A DNA stretch of 41,196 bases, taken from an uncultured Lachnospiraceae bacterium (GTDB lineage: Bacteria; Bacillota; Clostridia; Lachnospirales; Lachnospiraceae). Where the stretch lies: contig CADCDW010000037.1 of assembly GCA_902800325.1 (NCBI GenBank), positions 1 to 41,196 of the forward strand, written 5' to 3'. A model generated the notes under the pieces. It saw nothing but the letters and a program-made list of their open reading frames with translations, searched no databases and had not been told where the DNA came from. Below, piece by piece: positions 15,713-33,212 of the stretch (the first letter of the stretch is position 1; each line of letters starts with the position of its first letter). The position numbers and the translations under genes were made by a program.

Positions 15713-17632
15713 ATGAAGGGATTGAAGAAAAATTCTGTAAGAACAAGAAAGAGAGTGATAGCGATATTGCTGTCAGTACTTATGGTGCTGTCTATCGTTA
15801 TCCCAAGCGGTGGAAGTGGAGTGAGATACAATGCTTTCGCTGAAGGGGAGGAGTCTGCCGTAGGAGAGGGTGTAGACCTTACCTCAGAAGAAGGAACTGA
15901 TGAGGAAGAGGTGACTTCGGAAGAAATGATGGAGGAGACATCAGGTGAAACGACCGAGTTGACTGCTGAGGAAACGACAGAACTTCAAAAGGAAGAAATG
16001 ACTGAATCCATACAGGAATCAACAGAGGATGAGAAAAAAGAAATTATAGATTCTAAGAATGATTCTGCAACAGATGCAACAAATTCTTCGACAACAAAAG
16101 ATGAAATGATTAGTGATGAAGCTTTAGCAAATAATGACTCTGAGGATGCGGATGATGATAATGATGATGAAATAATAGAAGAGGAGAATATTTTAGGAGC
16201 GACTCAATCTTCAGATCTGAAAGAATATGTTTCAAATGCTGATGCGCAGACAGGTGTTGTATATGATTCAAGCAACAATTCATGGACAGGTGTTAATCTT
16301 AATAATGAGTATGAATTTACAATTTATTTTACGGAAGATCAGGTAAAACAGTTTATAGAAACAGATGCAGAAATGCATTATGATATTCCGGCCGGAATTA
16401 TAGCAAACAATATAAGTGGAACAACAATTAACCTGATATATAAACAGGGAAATAGTAATGATAAGATTCAGGTATCTAATAATCCTTTTAGAATTGAAAA
16501 TGGAATAATTTACTTTAATTTTAATACCTCTGATCCTAATTTTGGAACTTTAAAAAATTCTGATGATGCCCAGTTTTATCTTACTTTTAAAGGTAAATTT
16601 GATGGTTCTGAACAAAATATAAATTTTGGTAACGGGGTTACCAGAACTATAGATGCTGTTTTGGATAGTGATTTATCAGTTGATAAATCGTCAACCGGAA
16701 GCATATCGGCCGACAATGACAGCATTAATTATTCTGTAAGAGTAAGTTCAAAGGGATATAATAAAGACGTATCACTGAACGATAGTATTGATAATGATAA
16801 CTTTAAAATTGATAGTATAACATATACTGTATATAACAGTTATGGACAGTCTGTTAGTGCTGGAACATCAACTGTAAATGCCGATGGTAAAAGTTTTAGT
16901 CAAAATTTAGGCAATTTACCAAATGGGTATTATGTTGATTTTAATTATAAAGTTAAGATTAAGGATGGTGCTAATTTAGCTACTGCAGATACAGATTCGG
17001 ATGGAAAAGTTGGTTTTAACAACACGGCTAAAGCAACTACTACGAGCGAAGATACCGACCCATCCAATAATATAAAAACAAAATCCAATGATGTAACTTA
17101 TAGTTCGATATCCAATAAATCAGCTACTGTTACAGACGAAGAACATGGAATAGTTACATGGACTATAACAGTAAATCCGGAGAGAATGGTTTCATTAAAC
17201 GGTAAATCTTTATCTGATGTACTTGTTGATAGTGCTGATACAATTAATGATGATCAGGAGTTTTTAGGTGACGTAACGGTAAAAGGATATGCAAATAATT
17301 CTACAGGCTCGGGAAGTGCAGATGTGGAGTATACATTTACACCTTCTGGAAAATCTTTTAATTATACATTTAATGAGTCTGATTCGTCAAAAGCATATTA
17401 TTATGTAATTACATATCAGACACAGGCGCAGGATATTGATAAGCAGATAGCTGATATGAAGTTAAAGAATAAAGCAACATTTTTGAATGTTGATAAGCCT
17501 GCAGAAGCAACCATAGGTATAGATGATGAGTTTGATATTAGGAAAACTGCAACAGAGGTAAACTCTGATTATGTGCTTTGGACTGTTACTGTTGATGTGC
17601 CTGCAAAAGGTCTGGATAAGTACTTTAGATGA
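15713..17632 (+). CDS. Giant wall-anchored adhesin, N-terminal part (frame broken at its end)
   Basis: This 639-codon frame has an AAGGAGG site 6-7 bases before ATG. A long signal peptide has a basic start (residues 1-14), a hydrophobic core (15-31) and a probable cut after AFA at residue 43. An extended Glu/Thr/Ser-rich acidic stalk follows to about residue 165. Several beta-rich adhesin modules then begin near LSVDKSSTGSISADN and near KSATVTDEEHGIVTWTITVNP, as in isopeptide-forming fimbrial proteins. The frame stops at TGA 17630-17632 in the middle of a module (WTVTVDVPAKGLDK). The same module continues without loss in the next frame. It is the 5' part of one gene that is completed by 17571-26645. 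Confidence 0.85.
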   Translation: MKGLKKNSVRTRKRVIAILLSVLMVLSIVIPSGGSGVRYNAFAEGEESAVGEGVDLTSEEGTDEEEVTSEEMMEETSGETTELTAEETTELQKEEMTESIQESTEDEKKEIIDSKNDSATDATNSSTTKDEMISDEALANNDSEDADDDNDDEIIEEENILGATQSSDLKEYVSNADAQTGVVYDSSNNSWTGVNLNNEYEFTIYFTEDQVKQFIETDAEMHYDIPAGIIANNISGTTINLIYKQGNSNDKIQVSNNPFRIENGIIYFNFNTSDPNFGTLKNSDDAQFYLTFKGKFDGSEQNINFGNGVTRTIDAVLDSDLSVDKSSTGSISADNDSINYSVRVSSKGYNKDVSLNDSIDNDNFKIDSITYTVYNSYGQSVSAGTSTVNADGKSFSQNLGNLPNGYYVDFNYKVKIKDGANLATADTDSDGKVGFNNTAKATTTSEDTDPSNNIKTKSNDVTYSSISNKSATVTDEEHGIVTWTITVNPERMVSLNGKSLSDVLVDSADTINDDQEFLGDVTVKGYANNSTGSGSADVEYTFTPSGKSFNYTFNESDSSKAYYYVITYQTQAQDIDKQIADMKLKNKATFLNVDKPAEATIGIDDEFDIRKTATEVNSDYVLWTVTVDVPAKGLDKYFR

Positions 17633-20600
17633 ATCAAGCGTTAGTATCACAGGATTAAAATCGACAGAAAGTATAGTTAAAACATATGATACGCATGGTT
17701 TTACATTTACATTCAAAAAATCAAGCGGAGAAGAAGGCCTTGACGGTACAGGTGAAAGCAGACAGATTGTGATAACATACAAGACGAATGTTGATCAGGA
17801 TTGGCTCGAAAAATCAAAGACAGATACATGGCGTAAGACTCATACCAACAATATCACTGCCAGAGCAAATGATTTAGAAAAGAAGACTCATGCAGATGCA
17901 ACACCGGTTCAGGCTGAGATTGTTAAATCTTTTGTCGGCAAAGGGGTTGCAACGATAGATGGAGTCAATTATCCGTATTATGAGTTTAAGGTTAGAGTTG
18001 CACCTGTTGACAGTGATACAATAACTATTACGGATACCTTGCCGAAAGGCTTTGAAATATATACTGAAACACCTGTAACTGATTGGTCAAAAAAGACAAG
18101 AGTTTATGGTAGTAATTCAGTATGGAATAATGATGTTGATTTGAATAAGACTGTTGAGTCATCGGCACCGGATGCTGATAATAATGTTACATTTACTGTA
18201 CCGATAGTTAAGGATTCAAACACCGGTAATTATTATAGCTATTATTGGCTTGACTATTACATAATTGTAAAAGATAAATCTGCAATGAAAGAACTCGATC
18301 AGGCAGCTTTGGATACGTCTGATGATAAACTTACACTTACCAATACTGCTACATATATGGGGGAGAGTTACCCTGTTGACTTTGTATATGAGCCTAATAA
18401 GACCAACAGCAGTAATCTTACAAAAGAACTTGTTAGCCAGGAAAATGGTGTAGCAAAGTATAAGATTGATGTTAATCCGGATAAGCTTAGATTAAATGAT
18501 GGCTATGATATAACTCTTAAAGATACATTTACAAACTTAAGTATAGATTACTCAACTATTAAGGTTACAGCGGTTAGTCCTGAAGATGCTGAGGTGGTAA
18601 GCTGTGATGTTCGTAGTAATGTGATGACTATCGTTTTAAATGATGAAGCACATTATATAATCGAATATGAGTCAAATATACTTACAAATGGAGAATATAA
18701 AAATGTAGCTGAAGTAAAAGGCTTCACAGCTACAAAATCGGCCAGCTACTCATCATCAGGCGGAGGTGATTATGGAAATCAGTTATCCATCAATATATTT
18801 AAGCAGGAGTATGGCAATGCCCTTAATAAGCTTGAAGGAGTAGAATTCCAACTTTTTATAGATCAAGATGGAGTAGCAGTTCCTGTAAAAGATGAAAGTG
18901 GCAATATTGTAACTGCGACTACTGATGAAAATGGCAAAGCAACTTTTCAGGGAAGTAATTCTGCAGGCTGGAAGATAGTTAAAGGTCAAAAATATTATAT
19001 TAAAGAATTAAATCCGCCTGAAGGTTTCCTTGGAATCGATGGTATGTATAATTTTACAGTAGCGGATGTGTCTGACTGGAATAATTTTGTATATAAGACA
19101 GGCGAGACAATGCGTGTGGATAATGATAAGATTGACCTTAAGGTTACCAAGACATTGGATAATGCGCCTGATGATTTGGATCTTAGCACAATTCAATTTA
19201 CTGTTGTTGTAAGCGAGGGCGAAGGTGATGCGGCCAAAACAAAGACTTACACCAAGACTCTTGCGGAGATAAAAGCGGGGGTGGAATCAAACTCAAAATG
19301 GTATAGCTATGATTCTACTTCAAATACATACACATGGTATTTTACTAATCTGACTACAGGAAGTGAAGCAACAGTAACTGAAACGATAACAGCTACAGAT
19401 GATACTGATAAGCCGAGCTCGATAACATATAGTATATTTAATGATGGTGCCGCTTCATTATCGGATCGAAATTATACAAGTGGAACCAACTTAACTGTTT
19501 CAGGGCTTGGGGCAGATTCTGTTAAGACTGTTGCATTTACAAACAGTTATGCAGGTTCTGTGGATGTTACTCCGGTAGCATTTAAGAAACTTGATAATAA
19601 AATAAAAGGGGCAGGTGCAAGTCAGACTTATCCGTTAGATGGACTTTCATTTGGATTTTCAATATATGCTATGTCTGATAACTTATATCAAAATAATCAT
19701 ATAGGACCTGAAAGTGTGGCGCATCTTACAGATGGAACAAATTGGAACGCAACACCTTTATCATCAACAAGCGCTTCTGACTTAACGCTTGGTAAAGCAA
19801 CATTTGATAAGATAACATATAATTTAGATGGTACAACAGCTTTTCCGTTATATTATTATTATAAGATTGTAGAAAATACTTCAGGATATGCTGAAATTAC
19901 AGATGATACCGGATATGTAATTGTGTCTGTTGTAATAAACAAAGATACTACCAGTGGAGAACTTACAAAGAACGTAACATATACCAAGTATAAAGCTGAC
20001 GGTACTGTTGCTGTTGCGACAACCACAGATCCGAGAGCTACAGCATTTAATAATAGTACTGCAGATACAACACTTTCACTTAAGGCGAATAAGCTTTTAA
20101 ATGAAAACGGAAGAAGTATTACACCGGAAAGTGTATTTAGCTTTAAACTTGAACCTGTTACATTAAATGGTATAACTGATGATCAGACAAATGCAAATCA
20201 GGCTGATGTTACAAATTCAGCCGGAAGCGTTACTTTTGCCAATCTTACATATACAGCTGCTGATTTAAGTGATGACAGTTCAAATCCTACAGTATATAGA
20301 TATAAGATAAGTGAAAATGATGCTCCTGAAGGTTATACAAAAGATTCAAATTATTATTATATAGATGTAACCGTAACACGTGATACCGCAACAGGTGGAA
20401 TTAAGACATCAACCCAAATAACAAAGTATAATGCTTCAGGAACAGTAATTGAAGAAAATGTTGCTGCTTCAAGAGTTAGCTTTACCAATACCAAAGCTGC
20501 TCGAAAAGGTAGTATTTCACTCGCGATTTCAAAATCTGTAGATGGAAGTGTAAACGGTGTAACCGGAAATAATTATGGTAATTTTGATTTCTATTATGGA

Positions 20601-23600
20601 TATATAGGTGAGCAGTCAAATACACTTAAGCCTGATGAGATTTCATCATCTACAGCATGGTCAGCTCCTAAACAGGGAATTTGGTCTGCAGATGCTAATA
20701 GAATCACTTTCCCAGAGATTAACTATAGTACGGAAAATGGTGCAAATACTCAGTTTGGTACAGGTAAACATATTTACAAAATTTACGAGGGCGCCAATGG
20801 TTATAACGGAATTAACAATTCACGTGACTATTATGTTGTTGTAGTATCTGTAACTGATCCGGGAAGCGGAACAGAACTTACAACAGCAATAGATAAGGTT
20901 TATAAATATGAATATGATTCTGAAAACGGAACCTGGGGAAATGCTCAGTTGGTATCAGGAACAGGTACATCAAATGTAATATTTGATAATACTACCAATA
21001 AGGTAAGTGTCCCTATAATTGCTACTAAAACTATATTTGGAGGAGAGTATTCAAAAGCCGGATTTGAATTTACCATAAAAGCAATAGAAAATACAGCATT
21101 TGGTTATAAGGTATATAAAGATGCATCTAATAATGATTATACGGAAACTGTTACTTCGAATGAAAATGGTAACATAACTTTCTCAAATCTTGAATTTACC
21201 AAGGAATCAGATGCAGGACGTTATCAGTTTGAAATATCTGAGAAAACCGGAAATGATAGTTCTATTACTTATGATGCGCATATTTATAGAATTACTGTGC
21301 TTGTAACATATAATACTACAACAAAGACATTAGCAGCTTCAATTGAAACGGTAGAAAGAAAGAATAATTTGACTGATAATTATTCGCCTTTGAGCAATAG
21401 ATCAATTTCTTTTGAAAATACACTTGAGCCACAAAAGGGTTCAATATCATTTAAAGCACAAAAGAAGCTTAAAAAAACAGGCCAAACTACAGCAGGAACT
21501 GAAATTACTGATGTAAACGGAAATCTTAAGGAGTTTTCATTTAAGCTTGAACAGGTTGATCAAAGCGGTACTGCTGTTTCGCCTGCATATATACAGACTA
21601 AGCAAAATACTATAAATGGAAAAATAAGCTTTGACTCGATAATGTATGATAATTCAATGCTTACAGGAGCACCATATTACTATAAGGTTAGTGAGGTTGC
21701 ATCAACTACAAATGATGGTTACAAATATGCTGATGATGTATATTATATAAAAGTTGATTTAAGTGTTGATACTGATACTAATCGTATCATTGCAACCCCG
21801 ACATATTATAATAATGTCAGCATGACTTCATCAGATGTTATAACAGCTGACGAGATGATATTTATTAATGAAGAACTTGAAGCAACTCTTAAGCTTGAGG
21901 CACATAAGGAGCTTGTAGGTGCAAATATTACCGATTATTATGGGGCAGATCATAATGGATTTAAATTTACAGCAACAAGAGACGGAAAGACATATGAAGC
22001 TTATAATGATAACAGCGGAAAAATAGAAATCAACATTAATGAAGTCTTTGGTTTAGCTGATGTTGTGAATACTAATACTACACTAAATGCAAATGCGCAA
22101 CCTTATGTATATACTATAAAAGAGGTTGCAGAAGATGAGAGTGAGTTTAAATTTGATACTGCAACATATACGGCTGAGGTAACATTTAGTATTGACTCAA
22201 CAGGAATAGTTCCAAACATTGTTTATAAAGACAGCAGCAATACAGGAGTTTCAGGTTCGGAAGTTAAGTTTAGGAATACCAAGATTGCATCTGCTGAGAT
22301 TAATATTACAGCGCTTAAGACGTTTGGTACTAATAATGATGCTCCGGATAATAAGATTTTTAGTTTTGGATTATATGATACCAATCCTGCAATATCAGGA
22401 GCAACACCTATTCAGGTAAAGCAAAATAATGCTGAGGGTAATATTATATTTGACAAGATTGTATTTGCACAGGATGAGGTGTTTGAAACCGGAACAACCA
22501 CTAAAACATATTATGTTAAAGAAATAAAGCCGAATCCATTCCCACTTCCAGGATATGAATATGATGAAACGTTTTATACTATAACTGTTAATCTGTCCAG
22601 AAATGCAGGTACAGGAAAAATAGATATAAATTACACTATTAACAGGAGTTCGGATTCAGTAATTCAAAATGGAACAACAGGTGAGATAGGTAAAACAGCA
22701 ACTAATGAAGAATTTATACAGTTTAATAATAAAAATAGTGGAAAGACAGATTGGCCTTTATCTGTAAGAAAGGTTGTAGAGAATAATTCCGGTGTCGAGC
22801 ATCCGTTTACATTTAGGCTTTATAAAACAGATGGTAATTTTAATACCGAAGGTTTAAGCGGAGATAGTAATGTTAAAGAAGTTACATTAGATAATTCGGG
22901 TTATGCAGTTTTTGATGAACCGAATAATATTGGTACTGGTTCAATATTGTATATTACAAACGATTCAACAAATTACTATGTATTAGAAGAAGTTAATACA
23001 GGTGATAGCCTTGTTTCATATGTATCTGACCCGATTAAGCTTGTTGTTACCGCAGATGAAACTGGTAATGTAACAGTTAAAAACAGTGAAACAGATGAAG
23101 TATATACTGAGGCACGTGTTACATTTACCAATTCTATAGAAGTTAAGGTCAAGAAAACCAATGCGGATGGAACAGTAGCATTAACAGGTGCTGAACTTCA
23201 GGTGAAAAATGGTAATGCAGTTGTAAATACAAAGAATGGCAACCAAACAACAGATGGAAATACCGACAATGTTTATTCAGGTATAACTGTAGGACAGGAG
23301 TACACATTAGTAGAAAATAAAGCTCCTGTCGGATATGCATTGGCAGATCCGGTTACTTTCAAAGTTGATTATAATTCTTCTTCCAAGAAGTATGAATTAA
23401 AAGTCGACTATGGTAGCGGATATCAAACTATGTCCGGTTCGGGTGATGAAGCAATTACTGTAGTTATGAAGGATACATCAAACAGCCTTATCATCAATAA
23501 GAAGATATCTGATTCTACTTATCTTGCCGGAGCAACACTTCAGGTTAAGGAAGAATCGGGAGCAGTATTGGGAACTGCTTGGACTACAGATACTTTAGGT

Positions 23601-26600
23601 GGCGATAATCAGAACCATAGTGTTGATTTGAACACACTTACTCCGAATAAGTGGTATACTTTAGAAGAGACATCGGCTCCGTTTGGATATAAGATTGCAA
23701 CACCCGTACAGTTCATGATTGATTCTGATAACAAAGTGTGGACTAAGAAGCAGGGTGAAGCTGACACAGCTAAGATTGAACTTACCGCTGTAGAAGGAAA
23801 GTATACACTTACAATGTTTGATGAACCATTGGAGCTTACGATTACCAAGTTAAATAAAGCTACAGATGATAAGCTTCCGGGAGCTGTATTCTCTATATAT
23901 GCTAAAGACGGAAGTGGACTTATACAGTCAGGTATGGAAGTGGATTCAGTTGGAAAGCTTAAGTTAAATGTTCTTAGTCTTGGACTTGTAGCAGATAAGG
24001 AGTATATACTTGAAGAAACAACTGCTCCTGAGGGATTTGAAATTATAAATCCGATTACATTTATGATTACAAATGATAATACTCTTGTTGTAAATGGTGA
24101 AAACCAGACCGGTATGGAGATAAAGGTATATAATAAGAAAGAGGGAACAATATATATCAGTAAGGTTGATCCTTCTAATCCGGGCGTTGAGCTTAGAGGT
24201 GCTTTGCTTGTTGTAAGTCAGGATGGAACTGAAAAATATAGCTTTACTTCAACTGCAAATGCTTATGAAATCAGAACAGGTTCATTGGAAAAGAACAAGG
24301 TATATATCTTAAAGGAAATTGATGCTCCAAAAGATGCAAATGGAGTTCCTACACATTATCTTGCGGCAGAGATAAAGTTCTATTTAGATAACGATAGTGA
24401 GCTTTATGTACAAAAAGAAGGAGAAGCAGATTTCTCACATAGCTCAGACGGAAAGATTGTTATGGAAGATAAGGCAAGAGATGTTGTCAAGATTAGTAAG
24501 GTTGACCTTGTAACGAGTGATGAACTTCCGGGTGCAAAGCTTAAGATTACAGATGAAAACGGAAGACCGGTTTATGAAAAGAAAGTTGACGAGCATGGAA
24601 GCCTGATTACTACAACCAACAAGCTTGAGCATACTTCAGATGGCACAAAGTGGGAGATTGATTATTCTACATTTGAACTTGATACACCTTATGTTCTTAC
24701 AGAGATAACTGCGCCGGACGGATATGAGGTTGCAGAGGATATCACATTTAAGATTGTCAATGAAGGTGGAGAAAATGTAATTAAGATTAAGCAAACAGAT
24801 GGTTCATGGGAAACAAATACAAATATGACAGTAGTAATGCAGGACGCTCCGATGAATAATGTTTCATTTGTTAAACTTGATAAGTCAAGTGGACAGACAC
24901 TTGCAGGAGCAGGACTTACTATATACGATTCATATGGAGAAATTGCACATAGATTTACTACTACTAAAAATGCTACACAGTTTACAGTTGATGAGTTTAA
25001 TGTAAATGAAGAATATACATTAAAAGAAACAACTGTTCCGGACGGTTTCTATAAAGCTGATGATGTTGTGTTTAGGGTTAGCTTTGTCAACACTCAAAAT
25101 GGCAGAGTGCGTAAGCTCTTTGTAAAGGATACAGATGGAACGTTTAAGGTCAGAGAAACCGGACAGATAGTTATAGAAGATGAGCGTGTCTATAAGGTTA
25201 AGATTTCTAAGGTTGATCTTACATCCGAGGAAGAAGTACCTGGTGCTCACATTCAGATTCTTGATGAAAATGGCGATGTAGTTACAGAATGGGATTCTAC
25301 AGATGCTCCTAAGGAGATAGAAGGCTTACGTCCAAATGTAACTTATACACTTAGAGAAACTGTTGCACCTGAAGGATATAAGATAACTACCGATACAACT
25401 TTTGCACTCAAGGCAGATGCGACTATAGATTACGAAAAGACTTCAACCGCTATATCAAGCGAAGGGGTGCTTCTTGTAAAGGATGATATTACAAGTATTA
25501 ACTTTACAAAGTATGGTCTTGTTAATGAGTCATGTGCACCTGATCCTGCAGCTTATATACCTCTTGAGGGCGTAGAGTTTGAAGCTTACTCAATTGATGA
25601 AGATGGAAATGTATCAGATAACCCTGTTGCGACGGCTAAGTCAGGTAAAAATGGTATAGTGGTATTTAACAAGCTTGCAAAAGGTAAATATCAAATACGT
25701 GAGTCAAAGAGTGTCGATGCTTTTAAGATTTGTGAAGAATACTTCTATGCGACAGTAGATGACAATGATTTTGCCGGACTTACAGATGAAGAAGGAAATA
25801 AGATAGACGGTAACAGGATTATTGATGATCAGTACAGAACAGATATAGTGTTCACAAAGGTTAGTGAAAGAAATAAAGCCAAGAAGCTTGCCGGTTCAAC
25901 ATATGGTTTGTATAGAAAGAATGATTCGGCAGAGGAAACTCTTGTGGCAACGTCTGTATCTGATAAGGAAGGCGTTGTAACATTTAAGGGTGTTCTGACA
26001 AATATCAATTATGTTGTAAGAGAACTTGAATCACCGAAAGGGTATTATATATCTGAAAATCCTATGGAGATGAGCTTTAAGCTTGAAGGTGATAAAGTTG
26101 TTAGAAATGCTTTAAGTGATGGAAAAGGAACTGTAGTACTTGGAGCAAATGGTGAGATAACATGGTTAGAGCCTTCTGTAATAGTAAGTTTCCTTAAGGT
26201 TGATGGTGATAATAATCCTCTTCCGGGTGCGACACTTGCAGTGCTTGATATGAATGGTTCACCTGTAAAAGACGCAGATGGTAAGGAGATTAAGTGGGTT
26301 TCCACAAATGTTGCATACGAGGTTGCTGATGTATTTGAAGATGGTGTAAGTTATCAGCTGGTTGAGCTGGCAGCACCTGAGGGTTATGATGTTGCTGAAC
26401 CTATTGTATTTGAGATTCCGGAGGATAAGGTCGGAACCGGCGAAGATAAGGTGATTACTGTAACGATGATTGACAGAGCAAAAACAACCACAACAGTAAC
26501 TCCTCCTGAAAAAACTACACCTCCTTCGGTTAAGACAGGAGATTCAGCACCGGTTAAGCCGGTAACAGCAATGATGTTTATATCACTGGCAGGTATCGTA

Positions 26601-26645
26601 TTTCTACTTATACTTGGAAGAAGACGCAAGGAATTATTCAAATAA
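17571..26645 (+). CDS. Giant wall-anchored adhesin, main part with pilin-type and SpaA-type repeats
   Basis: The frame is open for 3,024 codons. The first 17 codons (to about 17621) are out-of-frame sequence of the upstream part, and no good ribosome site exists, so translation is expected only through the upstream frame. After two or three fimbrial modules there is one SpaA-type module (about 18775). About eight pilin-type isopeptide repeats of roughly 130-160 residues follow, each ending in FxNT/FTNS (about 19561-23130). Ten more SpaA/Cna-B modules follow (about 23148-26440) with E-T-x-A-P-x-G-Y/F signatures that include the cross-linking Glu. The end is a Pro/Thr linker, SVKTGD, a hydrophobic helix and RRRKELFK, a sortase sorting signal lacking canonical LP. 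The product should be a long, covalently stabilised surface fibre. No sortase gene is in the window. Confidence 0.88.
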   Translation: MCFGLLLLMCLQKVWISTLDESSVSITGLKSTESIVKTYDTHGFTFTFKKSSGEEGLDGTGESRQIVITYKTNVDQDWLEKSKTDTWRKTHTNNITARANDLEKKTHADATPVQAEIVKSFVGKGVATIDGVNYPYYEFKVRVAPVDSDTITITDTLPKGFEIYTETPVTDWSKKTRVYGSNSVWNNDVDLNKTVESSAPDADNNVTFTVPIVKDSNTGNYYSYYWLDYYIIVKDKSAMKELDQAALDTSDDKLTLTNTATYMGESYPVDFVYEPNKTNSSNLTKELVSQENGVAKYKIDVNPDKLRLNDGYDITLKDTFTNLSIDYSTIKVTAVSPEDAEVVSCDVRSNVMTIVLNDEAHYIIEYESNILTNGEYKNVAEVKGFTATKSASYSSSGGGDYGNQLSINIFKQEYGNALNKLEGVEFQLFIDQDGVAVPVKDESGNIVTATTDENGKATFQGSNSAGWKIVKGQKYYIKELNPPEGFLGIDGMYNFTVADVSDWNNFVYKTGETMRVDNDKIDLKVTKTLDNAPDDLDLSTIQFTVVVSEGEGDAAKTKTYTKTLAEIKAGVESNSKWYSYDSTSNTYTWYFTNLTTGSEATVTETITATDDTDKPSSITYSIFNDGAASLSDRNYTSGTNLTVSGLGADSVKTVAFTNSYAGSVDVTPVAFKKLDNKIKGAGASQTYPLDGLSFGFSIYAMSDNLYQNNHIGPESVAHLTDGTNWNATPLSSTSASDLTLGKATFDKITYNLDGTTAFPLYYYYKIVENTSGYAEITDDTGYVIVSVVINKDTTSGELTKNVTYTKYKADGTVAVATTTDPRATAFNNSTADTTLSLKANKLLNENGRSITPESVFSFKLEPVTLNGITDDQTNANQADVTNSAGSVTFANLTYTAADLSDDSSNPTVYRYKISENDAPEGYTKDSNYYYIDVTVTRDTATGGIKTSTQITKYNASGTVIEENVAASRVSFTNTKAARKGSISLAISKSVDGSVNGVTGNNYGNFDFYYGYIGEQSNTLKPDEISSSTAWSAPKQGIWSADANRITFPEINYSTENGANTQFGTGKHIYKIYEGANGYNGINNSRDYYVVVVSVTDPGSGTELTTAIDKVYKYEYDSENGTWGNAQLVSGTGTSNVIFDNTTNKVSVPIIATKTIFGGEYSKAGFEFTIKAIENTAFGYKVYKDASNNDYTETVTSNENGNITFSNLEFTKESDAGRYQFEISEKTGNDSSITYDAHIYRITVLVTYNTTTKTLAASIETVERKNNLTDNYSPLSNRSISFENTLEPQKGSISFKAQKKLKKTGQTTAGTEITDVNGNLKEFSFKLEQVDQSGTAVSPAYIQTKQNTINGKISFDSIMYDNSMLTGAPYYYKVSEVASTTNDGYKYADDVYYIKVDLSVDTDTNRIIATPTYYNNVSMTSSDVITADEMIFINEELEATLKLEAHKELVGANITDYYGADHNGFKFTATRDGKTYEAYNDNSGKIEININEVFGLADVVNTNTTLNANAQPYVYTIKEVAEDESEFKFDTATYTAEVTFSIDSTGIVPNIVYKDSSNTGVSGSEVKFRNTKIASAEINITALKTFGTNNDAPDNKIFSFGLYDTNPAISGATPIQVKQNNAEGNIIFDKIVFAQDEVFETGTTTKTYYVKEIKPNPFPLPGYEYDETFYTITVNLSRNAGTGKIDINYTINRSSDSVIQNGTTGEIGKTATNEEFIQFNNKNSGKTDWPLSVRKVVENNSGVEHPFTFRLYKTDGNFNTEGLSGDSNVKEVTLDNSGYAVFDEPNNIGTGSILYITNDSTNYYVLEEVNTGDSLVSYVSDPIKLVVTADETGNVTVKNSETDEVYTEARVTFTNSIEVKVKKTNADGTVALTGAELQVKNGNAVVNTKNGNQTTDGNTDNVYSGITVGQEYTLVENKAPVGYALADPVTFKVDYNSSSKKYELKVDYGSGYQTMSGSGDEAITVVMKDTSNSLIINKKISDSTYLAGATLQVKEESGAVLGTAWTTDTLGGDNQNHSVDLNTLTPNKWYTLEETSAPFGYKIATPVQFMIDSDNKVWTKKQGEADTAKIELTAVEGKYTLTMFDEPLELTITKLNKATDDKLPGAVFSIYAKDGSGLIQSGMEVDSVGKLKLNVLSLGLVADKEYILEETTAPEGFEIINPITFMITNDNTLVVNGENQTGMEIKVYNKKEGTIYISKVDPSNPGVELRGALLVVSQDGTEKYSFTSTANAYEIRTGSLEKNKVYILKEIDAPKDANGVPTHYLAAEIKFYLDNDSELYVQKEGEADFSHSSDGKIVMEDKARDVVKISKVDLVTSDELPGAKLKITDENGRPVYEKKVDEHGSLITTTNKLEHTSDGTKWEIDYSTFELDTPYVLTEITAPDGYEVAEDITFKIVNEGGENVIKIKQTDGSWETNTNMTVVMQDAPMNNVSFVKLDKSSGQTLAGAGLTIYDSYGEIAHRFTTTKNATQFTVDEFNVNEEYTLKETTVPDGFYKADDVVFRVSFVNTQNGRVRKLFVKDTDGTFKVRETGQIVIEDERVYKVKISKVDLTSEEEVPGAHIQILDENGDVVTEWDSTDAPKEIEGLRPNVTYTLRETVAPEGYKITTDTTFALKADATIDYEKTSTAISSEGVLLVKDDITSINFTKYGLVNESCAPDPAAYIPLEGVEFEAYSIDEDGNVSDNPVATAKSGKNGIVVFNKLAKGKYQIRESKSVDAFKICEEYFYATVDDNDFAGLTDEEGNKIDGNRIIDDQYRTDIVFTKVSERNKAKKLAGSTYGLYRKNDSAEETLVATSVSDKEGVVTFKGVLTNINYVVRELESPKGYYISENPMEMSFKLEGDKVVRNALSDGKGTVVLGANGEITWLEPSVIVSFLKVDGDNNPLPGATLAVLDMNGSPVKDADGKEIKWVSTNVAYEVADVFEDGVSYQLVELAAPEGYDVAEPIVFEIPEDKVGTGEDKVITVTMIDRAKTTTTVTPPEKTTPPSVKTGDSAPVKPVTAMMFISLAGIVFLLILGRRRKELFK

Positions 26646-29573: not shown

Positions 29574-29817
29574 ATTGGCGTGCCGTTAAAAAACTTAAAC
29601 TATAGTTGTACGGATAACAATGTATAAGCAGGTACTCTGAAGACGCCGGTACTTAGCGATTTGTATGCCAATTATAATCAACTTTACGAAGTAAAGAGTT
29701 GATTATAATTGGCATACGAAGAGTTTAGTACCGCTGCGTCTGAGGGTAGCGGGAGCGTGCCTGCGATACATTGATTATCCGTACAACCAGATTCATAAAC
29801 TAAATCGGCACGCCAAT
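29574..29817. repeat. Outer 12-bp inverted repeat enclosing the leuC leader RNA
   Basis: ATTGGCGTGCCG (29574-29585) and its exact reverse complement (29806-29817) bracket the conserved RNA element. They end 27 bases before the leuC ribosome site. Pairing would close a large multi-branch leader. This outer pair has no counterpart around the purC copy. Confidence 0.7.
29605..29787 (+). ncRNA. Conserved structured leader RNA, copy 1 (leuC leader)
   Basis: The outer stem is 29605-29625 with 29766-29787: 21 pairs and one bulged A on the 3' side. After an AA/G internal loop come GCAGGUAC (29628-29635) with GUGCCUGC (29757-29764), then AGACGC (29641-29646) with GCGUCU (29736-29741), then CGGUACU (29647-29653) with AGUACCG (29727-29733). 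Between the 3' strands lies GAGGGUAGCGGGAGC. The tip carries a 61-base insert forming a 21-bp hairpin (29663-29683 with 29697-29717). A U-G pair in the second stem and the position in a leader favour the plus strand. The same core occurs before purC. It is not a T-box, since no UGGNACC motif is present, and I cannot assign a class. Confidence 0.72.
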
Positions 29818-29856
29818 CCCAAAATCCACTAAAAAGAATATATGGAGGAAACCAAT

Positions 29857-31122
29857 ATGGGTATGACAATGACACAGAAAATTCTCGCTGCTCATGCAGG
29901 GTTAGAAAGTGTAAGTGCCGGTCAGCTTATAGAAGCGGATTTGGATTTGGTACTTGCCAATGATGTAACAGCTCCTGTTGCTATACATGAGATGGAGAAA
30001 TTCAACAAAAAGCAGGTTTTCGATAAGGAAAAAGTAGCTCTTGTTATGGACCACTTTACTCCTAACAAGGATATCAAAAGTGCAGAGCATTGCAAATGTG
30101 TAAGAGAGTTTTCAAAGGACTATGATATTACAAACTTCTTTGATGTAGGTGCTATGGGAATCGAACATGCACTTTTACCTGAAAAAGGTCTTATAGTCGC
30201 AGGTGAAACCTGTATAGGTGCTGATTCACATACATGTACATATGGTGCACTTGGTGCATTTTCAACCGGAGTCGGAAGTACTGATATGGCTGCCGGTATG
30301 GTAACAGGAAAGGCATGGTTCAAGGTGCCTTCTGCAATTAAATTTAATATAGTTGGAGAAAAAGCTAAGTGGGTAAGCGGTAAGGATGTTATCCTTCATA
30401 TCATCGGTATGATAGGTGTGGATGGAGCTTTATATCGTTCTATGGAATTTGTTGGTGACGGTATAAAGAATCTTACTATGGATGACAGATTTACAATTGC
30501 CAATATGGCTATAGAGGCCGGTGCAAAAAATGGAATCTTTCCTGTAGATGAGCTTACCGAGGAATATATGAAGGAACACTCAACAAAGACCTATACAAAG
30601 TATGAGGCAGATGCCGATGCAGAGTATGACGAGGAGTACACAATTGACTTGTCCACTCTTAGACCGACAGTAGCATTTCCACATCTTCCGGAAAACACTA
30701 AGACGATTGATGAGGTTGGCGAGATTAAGATAGACCAGGTTGTAATCGGCTCATGTACTAATGGACGTATTTCGGACATGAGAATTGCAGCTGGGATAAT
30801 GAAGGACAGGCATGCGGCAGATGGTGTGAGAGTTATAGTTATACCGGGTACGCAGGACGTATATTTGCAGATGTTAAAGGAAGGACTTACGGAGATATTT
30901 ATTAAAGCCGGAGCTATAGTATCCACTCCAACCTGTGGACCTTGTCTTGGCGGACATATGGGAGTTATGGCTGCCGGAGAAAAAGCAGTCTCAACCACCA
31001 ATCGTAACTTCGTAGGACGTATGGGTCATGTGGACTCGGAGGTTTATCTCGCCAGTCCGGCTGTTGCGGCTGCTTCAGCCATAACAGGAAAGATAAGCTG
31101 TCCATGTGAGCTTGGATTATAA
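29857..31122 (+). CDS. leuC: 3-isopropylmalate dehydratase large subunit
   Basis: The enzyme interconverts 2- and 3-isopropylmalate in leucine synthesis, together with LeuD. The 421-residue product has the aconitase-type cluster ligands Cys300 (GSCTNGR), Cys360 and Cys363 ([11 protein letters not shown]) for a [4Fe-4S] centre, plus substrate-site motifs [14 protein letters not shown] and NFVGRMGH. Its length fits the shorter bacterial/archaeal LeuC type, not the 466-residue enterobacterial type. The start at 29857 has GGAGGA 7 bases upstream. An ATG at 29842 lies just before that site and cannot use it. It is likely controlled by the LysR protein and by the structured leader. leuD follows 59 bases later. 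Confidence 0.96.
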
Positions 31123-31181
31123 TAGTGAAGATAATGGTTATCTGATAAAATATATAGTTTACATAATATGGAGGTAATAAC

Positions 31182-31670
31182 ATGAAAGCATGCGGAACAG
31201 TTCATAAATATGGTGATAACGTAGACACAGACGTTATAATTCCTGCAAGATATCTTAATTCGTCAGATCCGGCTGAATTAGCAAAAAACTGCATGGAAGA
31301 TATAGACAAGGATTTTGTAAAAAGAGTTAAGCCGGGGGACATAATGGTTGCCAACAAGAACTTTGGCTGTGGTTCTTCGAGAGAGCATGCACCGATAGCC
31401 ATAAAGGCATCAGGCATAAGCTGCGTTATAGCCGAAACCTTTGCCAGAATCTTTTACAGAAATGCAATCAATATAGGACTTCCTATTATAGAATGTCCTG
31501 AAGCTGCCAAGGCAATCGAGGCCGGTGATACAGTGGAAATCGATTTTGATTCTGGTATGATATATGATAAGACAAAGGGTTTGGAATTTAAAGGACAGGC
31601 ATTTCCTCCATTTATGCAGGAGATTATAAAAAGCGGCGGTCTTATAGCAAGAATTAATGCTAAAAATTAA
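31182..31670 (+). CDS. leuD: 3-isopropylmalate dehydratase small subunit
   Basis: The 162-residue product is the swivelling domain of isopropylmalate isomerase. It contains the signature [15 protein letters not shown], then [15 protein letters not shown] with the substrate-binding Ser-Ser-Arg, and [17 protein letters not shown]. Its length is normal for the short LeuD group that pairs with 420-residue LeuC proteins. GGAGG lies 8 bases upstream of ATG. It is co-transcribed with leuC. No convincing terminator is seen between its stop and the RNA element at 31752, so read-through into purC is possible. Confidence 0.96.
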
Positions 31671-31751
31671 TTTATAATTATTTAGTTTTTTATTGATTAA
31701 TAACTCATAAAAAAATTATTTAGTATTTATTTTAACTGTTAATATTTAACA

Positions 31752-31891
31752 GGACTTGACAGAATAGAAATAATTCATAAGCAGGTACTTTGAACACTCC
31801 GGTACTTAACGAGCATGCGAGTTTAGTACCGTTGCGTGTGAGAGTAGCGAGAGCGTGCCTGCGATGAATTAATTTCTATTCTGGAAAGTCC
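31752..31891 (+). ncRNA. Conserved structured leader RNA, copy 2 (purC leader)
   Basis: The outer stem is 31752-31778 with 31864-31891: about 25 pairs, a GA/GA internal loop and one bulged A. The AA/G loop and GCAGGUAC (31781-31788) with GUGCCUGC (31855-31862) are as in copy 1. The third stem is ACACUC (31794-31799) with GCGUGU (31834-31839). It keeps five of six pairs and swaps one G-C of copy 1 for C-G. CGGUACU (31800-31806) pairs with AGUACCG (31825-31831). The 15-base 3' strand reads GAGAGUAGCGAGAGC. The tip is only GCAUGC between conserved UAACGA and GAGUUU. The 3' arm ends about 10 bases before the purC ribosome site. Confidence 0.75.
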
Positions 31892-31912: not shown

Positions 31913-32782
31913 ATGAAAGAATTTAAACCGGTTAAGGAAGGTAAAGTAAGAGAGATATACGATAACGGCGATAATCTTATTATGGTAGCTACAGACAGAA
32001 TAAGCTGTTTTGATGTTATATTAAACAATACAGTAACTAAAAAAGGAACAGTTTTAACACAGATGTCAAAACTCTGGTTTGATATGACAGAGGATATAAT
32101 TCCAAACCATATGATATCCGTAGATGTAAATGATATGCCGGAGTATTTCAGACAGCCACAGTTTGATGGCAATTCAATGATGTGTAAGAAGCTTGAAATG
32201 CTTCCTATCGAGTGTATCGTTCGTGGATATATAACAGGAAGCGGTTGGGAGAGCTACAAGAAGGATGGTACCGTATGTGGTATAAAGCTTCCTGACGGTC
32301 TTAAGGAGTCTGATAAGCTTCCGGAACCTATATACACACCTTCCACAAAGGCTGAGATAGGTGAGCATGATGAAAACATTTCCTATGAGCAGAGTGTGTC
32401 ACATCTTGAAAAGTATTTTCCGGGTAAGGGCGAGGAATACGCTTCAAAGTTAAGAGATTATACAATAGCTCTTTACAAAAAATGTGCAGATTATGCTCTT
32501 TCAAAGGGAATTATAATTGCTGATACAAAATTTGAGTTTGGTCTGGACGAAAACGGCAATATGGTTTTGGGTGATGAAATGCTTACCCCTGATAGCTCAA
32601 GATTCTGGCCGGCAGATGTATATGAGCCGGGACATTCCCAGCCATCCTTTGATAAGCAGTTTGCACGTGACTGGTTAAAGAGCCATGAAGGTCACAACTG
32701 GACACTGCCACAGGACGTAGTTGATAAAACCATAGCAATCTACCTCGAAGGCTATGAGAAGCTTTCGGGTAAGAAGTTATAA
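31913..32782 (+). CDS. purC: Phosphoribosylaminoimidazole-succinocarboxamide synthase
   Basis: The enzyme joins aspartate to CAIR with ATP to form SAICAR in purine synthesis. The 289-residue product shows the family motifs KVREIYDNGDNLIMVATDRIS at the N-terminus (only the core KVREIY is needed), IECIVRGYITGSGW, IIADTKFEFG and DEMLTPDSSRFW. Length and motifs match the 290-300-residue type, longer than the 235-residue E. coli enzyme. AAAGGAAG lies 7 bases upstream of ATG. It stands alone among leucine genes, with no other pur gene nearby. It is preceded by the structured leader and followed by the 74-bp repeat array. Confidence 0.95.
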   Translation: MKEFKPVKEGKVREIYDNGDNLIMVATDRISCFDVILNNTVTKKGTVLTQMSKLWFDMTEDIIPNHMISVDVNDMPEYFRQPQFDGNSMMCKKLEMLPIECIVRGYITGSGWESYKKDGTVCGIKLPDGLKESDKLPEPIYTPSTKAEIGEHDENISYEQSVSHLEKYFPGKGEEYASKLRDYTIALYKKCADYALSKGIIIADTKFEFGLDENGNMVLGDEMLTPDSSRFWPADVYEPGHSQPSFDKQFARDWLKSHEGHNWTLPQDVVDKTIAIYLEGYEKLSGKKL

Positions 32783-32789
32783 AAGAAAG

Positions 32790-33212
32790 TATAAAAACCA
32801 AGATTTGTTACCTGTTTAGGGAAAATTAAAGTAACAAAAGAAGACAAGCCGGTAACAAAAGCTATAAAAAATCAAGATTTGTTACCTGTTTAGGAAAAAT
32901 TAAAGCAACAAAATAAGACAAGCCGATAACAAAAGCTATAAAAAATCAAGATTTGTTACCTGTTTAGGAAAAAATAAAGCAACAAAAGAAGACAAGCCGG
33001 TAACAAAAGCTATAAAAAATCAAGATTTGTTACCGGTTTAGGAAAAATTAAAGCAACAAAAAAGATAAAGCCGGTAACAAAAACTATAAAAAACCAAGAT
33101 TCGTTACCGATTTAGGAAAAAAAGAAGCAACAAAAAAGATAAAGCCGGTAACAAAAGCTATAAAAAATCAAGATTTGTTACCGGTTTAGGAAAAATTAAA
33201 GCAACAAAGTAA
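32790..33212 (+). repeat. 74-bp tandem repeat array, five full copies plus a partial sixth
   Basis: Units begin at 32790, 32863, 32937, 33011, 33085 and 33159; the first is 73 bases. Each contains a TATAAAAAATCAAGATT-type start, GTTACC-(G/T)GTTTAGG and AAGCCGGTAAC. In several copies GUUACCGGUUU pairs with AAGCCGGUAAC across the unit, one pair being U-G on the plus strand. Copies differ by a few bases each. The array fills the whole gap between purC and leuB and carries no gene. Confidence 0.92.

Follow-up and report, generated by a model that had tools for sequence, protein, structure and literature searches.

Two copies of a dispersed, probably mobile Lachnospiraceae repeat with a putative strand-specifically folded RNA core in front of leuC and purC

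The DNA analysed here, the window, is a stretch of 41,196 nucleotides from an uncultured Lachnospiraceae bacterium (assembly GCA_902800325.1, contig CADCDW010000037.1, positions 1 to 41,196, forward strand). The genes in the region of interest were identified by NCBIfam as leuC, leuD, purC and leuB. Direct reading of the sequence found two copies of a structured element there, both on the plus strand: copy 1 at 29605–29787 before leuC (29857–31122, plus strand; TIGR02083, 725 bits), and copy 2 at 31752–31891 before purC (31913–32782, plus strand; NF010568, 408 bits). The two genes lie downstream of the element and outside it. An earlier note on this DNA had described two copies with a common core, segments of equal length, and outer stems that differ in sequence but are complementary, and the reading bore this out.

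Both copies hold GCAGGTAC/GTGCCTGC, CGGTACT/AGTACCG, the strand GAGRGTAGCGRGAGC and an AA/G internal loop, and in both the outer stem has a bulged base. The named core segments were of the same length in both, with the exception of the apical hairpin of the fourth stem (P4). The outer stems (P1) differed in sequence, each being complementary to itself.

In copy 1, the 5' arm of P1 (29605–29625; locus L018) formed 21 Watson–Crick pairs with the 3' arm (29766–29787), with one bulge on the 3' side. After the AA of the internal loop came the 5' strand of P2, GCAGGTAC (29628–29635), which paired with GTGCCTGC (29757–29764). The 5' strand of P3, AGACGC (29641–29646), paired with 29736–29741, and this stem covaried between the copies of the genome. 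The P4 hairpin, CGGTACT...AGTACCG (29647–29733), carried a long and variable apical hairpin; its assignment came from the sequence, the fold and the comparison of the copies. The 15-base strand GAGGGTAGCGGGAGC (29742–29756) formed a 2-bp mini-hairpin with the GNRA loop GGGA. Outside P1 lay a far-outer stem, a 12-base perfect inverted repeat of ATTGGCGTGCCG (29574–29585) and CGGCACGCCAAT (29806–29817).

In copy 2, the 5' arm of P1 (31752–31778), as judged from sequence and fold, consisted of GGACTT, an interruption and CAGAATAGAAATAATTCAT, and the 3' arm lay at 31864–31891. P2 was formed by GCAGGTAC (31781–31788) and GTGCCTGC (31855–31862), and the 15-base strand was GAGAGTAGCGAGAGC (31840–31854) with the GNRA loop GAGA. 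The 5' strand of P3, ACACTC (31794–31799), paired with 31834–31839 except for one T.C mismatch, which was absent from the earlier note. The P4 hairpin (31800–31831) was assigned by comparison of the copies; both it and P3 were outside the minimum-energy fold of the single sequence. The second pair of P3 was changed from G-C to C-G between the copies (AGACGC/GCGTCT in copy 1, ACACTC/GCGTGT in copy 2), confirming a swap noted before. Both copies folded far more stably than dinucleotide shuffles (z = -17.2 for copy 1 and -10.3 for copy 2). For copy 1, the proposed helices were contained in the minimum-energy fold.

The core was repeated elsewhere in the genome. A 23-base core pattern, GAGNGTAGCGNGAGCGTGCCTGC, occurred 11 times with up to three mismatches, and the backward control gave none. 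A covariance model (R1) was built from an alignment (A1) of nine copies of this genome, with the truncated L010 and the tandem-duplicated L011 left out. It gave 16 matches in the genome, one of them partial. The two window copies, both among the nine sequences that built the model, were matched on the plus strand at 29609–29782 (121.2 bits) and 31762–31880 (128 bits).

Genome searches with such a model, as the earlier note had proposed, returned many matches with covarying stems at different genes. R1 matched all 37 genomes of the genus (g1) and, in a sample of 200 genomes from the family, 75; none of 24 genomes from other families of the order matched. The names of the closest leuD relatives pointed to Lachnospiraceae as this family. 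In a sample of 246 genomes from the order, a broader model, R2, matched 23, all of them within the family. In a sample of 398 from the phylum it matched 5, of which four belong to the family and one (G827) falls outside the class. The assemblies were drafts, and in searches of more than 40 genomes stricter filters were applied and few candidates were scored in each, so these counts are lower bounds. Among 30 genomes chosen as positives, the copy number ranged from 2 to at least 100, with at least 100 in G076 and 62 in G120. The G827 genome contained at least eight copies (L342–L349) with their own version of the core and private stems, which suggests horizontal spread.

Several variants of the core were encountered: an internal deletion in L010, and internal duplications or insertions in L011, L252, L254 and L261. 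Some of the joints in this set were at TAGCGAG-like repeats. In L350 (560–950), two divergent copies were seen by eye inside a 25-bp perfect inverted repeat, and further divergent pairs were present in L216, L218, L243, L351, L353, L354 and L355.

The earlier note had recognised no known RNA class, and none was found here: no family of Rfam 15 reached its gathering score in the window, and none appeared at E ≤ 0.1 in eight further loci. Ten sub-threshold matches were at chance level. The best of them were plant microRNA hairpin models, which matched copy 1 on either strand (E 0.0006 and 0.0035), as a palindrome would be expected to do. Copy 2 had no match in plasmid and phage collections, and two exact core patterns found nothing in IMG/VR, a weak negative from exact matching only. 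A plasmid or phage origin was rejected on these results. We found no such Lachnospiraceae repeat in the literature, a weak negative also, from open-licence papers only.

In the nine copies of the genome, 93.3% of the cells in paired positions paired, and 21 of the 43 pairs changed on both sides; none of 500 shuffles reached this. A larger alignment (A2) was made from R1 matches in 82 loci, giving 99 rows, 92 of them distinct. Among the distinct sequences, two-sided changes occurred in all 43 pairs. The covariation score was 0.693; shuffles gave 0.188 and slid controls no more than 0.110. The mini-hairpin loop was GNRA in 90 of the 92 sequences; seven different GNRA loops were in use, and GNYA did not occur.

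Pairing could also be maintained at the level of DNA. The repeat could be a plain palindromic miniature inverted-repeat transposable element (MITE), in which pairing is kept by hairpin-recognising transposases or by templated correction of quasi-palindromes, and the RNA has no role. The terminal and direct repeats of many G247 and G076 units (below) favour such an element, and long stem-loops are common among bacterial MITEs as described in PMC2229807. Many P1 stems of G020 were perfect over 25–28 pairs, as templated correction would give. On the other hand, upkeep of DNA is symmetric with respect to the strands. Over all pairs, there were 160 G-U, 50 A-C and 153 other unpaired cells, and 36 of the 50 A-C cells were at two positions. 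In the 15 outer pairs of P1, the ratio of G-U to A-C was 52:2. A DNA palindrome is not expected to prefer G-U over A-C on one strand, so this preference indicated that the element's own strand was kept folded. The GNRA rule and the conserved asymmetric internal loops also stood against a DNA palindrome. A single-stranded DNA form of one strand may come into question here. We regard the plain DNA palindrome as doubtful.

The G-U excess was then sorted by neighbouring genes, with six duplicate rows of the 99 dropped. In the 24 copies for which both neighbours run antisense, the ratio of G-U to A-C was 13:0; it was 6:1 in the 8 copies in convergent position and 33:1 in the other 61. If selection acted through host transcripts, the bias should reverse in antisense copies. 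It did not, which again indicated that the element's own strand was kept folded. The plus strand of the element thus appears to be kept folded as RNA, whatever the direction of the host gene. This upheld the claim that G-U pairs point to the plus strand. The proposal of a selected RNA, as opposed to a shared DNA repeat alone, was likewise supported by the covariation in every pair, the one-strand G-U excess and the GNRA loops.

A structured RNA before two biosynthetic genes might be a cis-regulatory leader, either a riboswitch or a protein-binding leader, that controls the gene downstream. The elaborate fold with its GNRA loop fits such a function. The right-hand gene was co-directional for both window copies and for 43 of the 60 listed g1 placements, often 0–70 bases away. 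The downstream genes, however, were unrelated: leuC and purC by NCBIfam, and panD-, amt-, mnmG-, rseP- and argJ-like starts by eye. With a simple open reading frame rule applied to all 99 rows, related genomes and duplicates included, the neighbours in g1 were both rightward in 32 cases, both leftward in 13, divergent in 10, convergent in 2 and incomplete in 3. In the other genera, the corresponding numbers were 10, 13, 5, 6 and 5, so that outside g1 co-directional and antisense tandem arrangements were balanced. A consistent sense orientation to the downstream gene was not found in this count over the 99 rows, and the antisense and convergent copies kept the same strand folded.

In the leuCD loci of 80 relatives, R1 gave two matches, none of them in front of leuC; at least four of these loci lacked the leuC start. 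A coherent, species-conserved set of regulated genes was not found in the gene labels (partly by eye), in the 80 leuCD loci or among close relatives. The special link to leuC and purC in the earlier note was therefore not supported: the element stood at many genes, in either orientation, and its sites varied among close species. Its orientation, the set of genes beside it and its absence from relatives led us to reject a riboswitch for leu and pur genes, and we consider control of the downstream genes by a leader RNA of either kind unlikely. leuC and purC are most likely two landing places of the element. At one locus of G020 (L280, approximately 503–623), an inverted repeat outside P1, 16 bp long as read by eye, spanned the likely ribosome-binding site and the start codon; the extended hairpin there could mask the translation start of the downstream gene. 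Elsewhere in the window, a 3024-aa open frame (17571–26645) resembled by eye a repetitive surface adhesin with a membrane- or sorting-like C-terminal end.

A fold that is strand-specific and independent of the neighbours would fit an RNA made separately, from a multi-copy family of small-RNA genes that spread as passengers and whose RNA acts in trans. A promoter scan around the window copies gave 18 consensus matches on both strands, compared with 9.4 ± 3.1 in shuffles, and one plus-strand match (31746–31774) overlapped P1 of copy 2. No conserved promoter or terminator stood out in the flanks that were read, the promoter scan having covered the window copies only, and with P1 arms private to each copy no common target-pairing stretch was seen there. 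We find small-RNA genes a rather unlikely explanation.

The private nature of P1 was evident from the comparison of copies within genomes. In G004, G076, G020 and G827 (3, 12, 11 and 8 copies), the cores were 80–95% identical between copies and the outer P1 arms 54–68%; random 19-mers gave 54% with the same aligner. The three copies of G004 had a core identity of 0.95 and outer P1 arms at the random level (0.54–0.56), with a complementarity of 0.82 between a copy's own arms. Across the four genomes, a P1 arm was 72–90% complementary to its own partner and 50–61% to the partner from another copy. The P1 arms of G076 were 67–68% identical and thus kept some likeness. G247 (6 copies) was an exception, in which P1 was common to the copies (92–94%).

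Compensation in place was seen at orthologous sites. In 32 pairs of sites, we counted 51 two-sided Watson–Crick changes, 3 two-sided changes with G-U, 22 G-U steps, 3 A-C steps and 19 disrupting changes; 33 of 65 pairs had been skipped since one of the two sequences did not pass the pairing filter, and some of the two-sided changes belong to sites that may hold different elements. G020 and G024 had, at one site, only the outermost P1 pairs in common. The private stems may have arisen by compensatory drift, by templated correction, or by inverted duplication at insertion. Landing of the core in pre-existing palindromes was also considered. In 177 kb of the window's genome, perfect inverted repeats of at least 13 bp numbered 16 without a core and 8 overlapping cores, with none in one locally shuffled control. 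Inspected empty alleles contained no such stem by eye, except for hairpins in G023 and G008 and a short one in G024, possibly remnants. With few core-less perfect inverted repeats and empty alleles mostly lacking a stem, this origin was rejected.

Filled and empty alleles were found in close species, as for a MITE. The lysR-leuC, leuD-purC, purC-leuB and leuB-ilvD gaps were filled or empty in varying combinations among close relatives. In G016, the leuD-purC spacing was approximately 14 bases. Plain deletions were seen in G024, where the leuD-purC gap retained the 3' arm and a few bases of the core, and 53 bases were left of the lysR-leuC copy. Three 'empty' alleles contained sequence resembling, by eye, the 3' arm only; deletion explains these too, a fourth such allele being plainly a deletion. 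L362 and L375 held core-less hairpins, either remnants or alternative hairpins, at sites where G020 has the element. In the window, the purC-leuB gap was filled by a tandem array (32786–33208; 74-bp unit, 5.8 copies, 91% matches). A similar array was seen by eye in G008, and the gap contained the RNA element or approximately 20 bases in other close relatives.

Further signs of mobility came from G247 and G076, which belong to two other genera. The terminal repeat of G247, GGTAATTGCGAAACT, occurred 52 + 51 times with up to two mismatches, compared with 3 + 4 times for the backward control. Many G247 units were approximately 206 bp long with the ends TAGG...CCTA, and the G076 units were approximately 304–348 bp. 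A terminal-repeat pair was present by rule in 27 of 43 G247 and G076 loci, three of these being poor matches of odd length. Flanking direct repeats of 8–16 bp with at most one mismatch accompanied 17 of the 27 units; flanks taken from different copies gave 26 in 702, or about one of 27 expected. Outer repeats of at least 10 bp beyond P1 were found in 6 of 55 copies against 0.9 expected from mismatched pairs, an excess that was real but modest. The element probably moves, at least in some genera.

These features resemble those of known repeats. For bacterial MITEs, 5'-TA termini, terminal inverted repeats and direct repeats are among the properties listed in PMC2229807. The Correia/NEMIS, ERIC and RUP elements described there are likewise short, non-coding, dispersed repeats with 5'-TA termini and transcripts that would fold into long stem-loops, often beside genes, and, like many units of the G247/G076 type, they have terminal inverted repeats and direct repeats. 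The present element differs from them: its asymmetric core, with covarying helices and a GNRA loop, is conserved in many genera, selection on its pairing is strand-specific, and one of its stems is copy-specific; moreover, its g1 type is mostly without visible terminal repeats. Rfam riboswitches and leader RNAs are also structured and often upstream of biosynthetic genes, but the element lacks an Rfam match, gene specificity and a fixed orientation. To our knowledge, a conserved RNA core, strand-specific selection and a copy-specific stem are not features of Correia/NEMIS, ERIC or RUP.

A mobile or repeat candidate of a genome survey, MRSC-65-2 (PMC11109978), is similar in its many copies, inconsistent orientation and strong covariation, and in possible relevance as DNA or RNA. 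The survey describes it as one long stem containing a UYCCGG repeat, whereas the present element is made up of several helices, with internal loops that are asymmetric and with a GNRA hairpin.

The element is a dispersed palindrome, with several divergent pairs seen, and in this it is like the REP/BIME elements. These are dispersed palindromes, sometimes in inverted pairs, associated with RAYT (Y1) transposases. The Y1 transposase, however, is absent from 29 of the 37 genus genomes that carry the element. The direct repeats beside terminal-repeat units are at odds with the chemistry of Y1 transposases.

We interpreted the two structures as copies of a dispersed, non-autonomous, MITE-like mobile element of Lachnospiraceae, which has a folded plus-strand RNA core and a copy-specific clamp stem. 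This is probable, in our judgement, though well short of certain. The RNA would consist of the clamp stem P1, the AA/G internal loop, P2, P3, P4 and the mini-hairpin with the GNRA loop, and the plus-strand fold would be under selection for the element's own sake. A trans-acting partner, either a protein or a larger machinery, may recognise the folded core, and this recognition may sustain the copying or homogenisation of the family from site to site. P1 would isolate the core fold from the surrounding transcript or locus; therefore its pairing, and not its sequence, would be selected. Where a copy lies in a 5' leader, as before leuC and purC, it probably changes the stability or translation of the leader as a by-product of the landing place.

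Several observations weigh against this interpretation. The minimum-energy fold of copy 2 alone kept P1 and P2 and none of P3 or P4; its energy was -45.9 kcal/mol, the model fold being 3.3 kcal/mol less stable at -42.6, and therefore the inner helices of this copy rest on the comparison of copies. The 94.8% of cells that paired among the 92 distinct sequences came from an alignment (A2) that was fitted to the model, favouring its structure, with gaps in the outer stem at a few positions only. In g1, the co-directional tandem arrangement was the commoner one (32 versus 13, related genomes included), as leader function would also give. By rule, 10 of the 27 terminal-repeat units were without a direct repeat and 16 of the 43 loci without a terminal pair, and terminal-repeat ends were seen in only 2 of 55 g1 copies (L035 and L038). 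Several 'empty' alleles looked like deletions and not like pre-insertion states, which leaves it uncertain in which direction the sites changed. Neither a transposase nor another partner was found in the one 4.2-kb stretch examined or in a search for one transposase family. That stretch, a terminal-repeat pair in G247 considered as a possible autonomous transposon with the same ends, enclosed ordinary-looking open frames by eye, and the candidate was rejected. The Y1 transposase (PF01797) was present in only 8 of the 37 genus genomes, being absent also from high-copy ones and from the window's own genome, and was thus rejected as a general mobiliser.

The RNA core itself might be the unit that moves or is copied, as a bacterial counterpart of a short interspersed element (SINE) or as an RNA-templated converter of its own copies, with each site building a clamp stem of its own, for instance through an inverted duplication of the target DNA beside it. 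We left room for this because the cores were common to the copies, P1 was near random and often perfect, the selection on RNA was strand-specific, and some 'empty' alleles held, by eye, a sequence resembling the 3' arm only. We give it a slim chance.

On the interpretation as a MITE-like element with a folded RNA core, an RNA structure that is widespread and abundant in a major gut family lies outside Rfam 15 and would be new material for annotation and research. It combines a mobile repeat with an RNA of conserved architecture under strand-specific selection, two things that are usually considered separately. The copy-specific stem poses a mechanistic question, namely how similar cores come to stand on unrelated yet well-paired stems. 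For the bacteria that carry it, the element places hairpin leaders on metabolic genes, and does so differently between close species.

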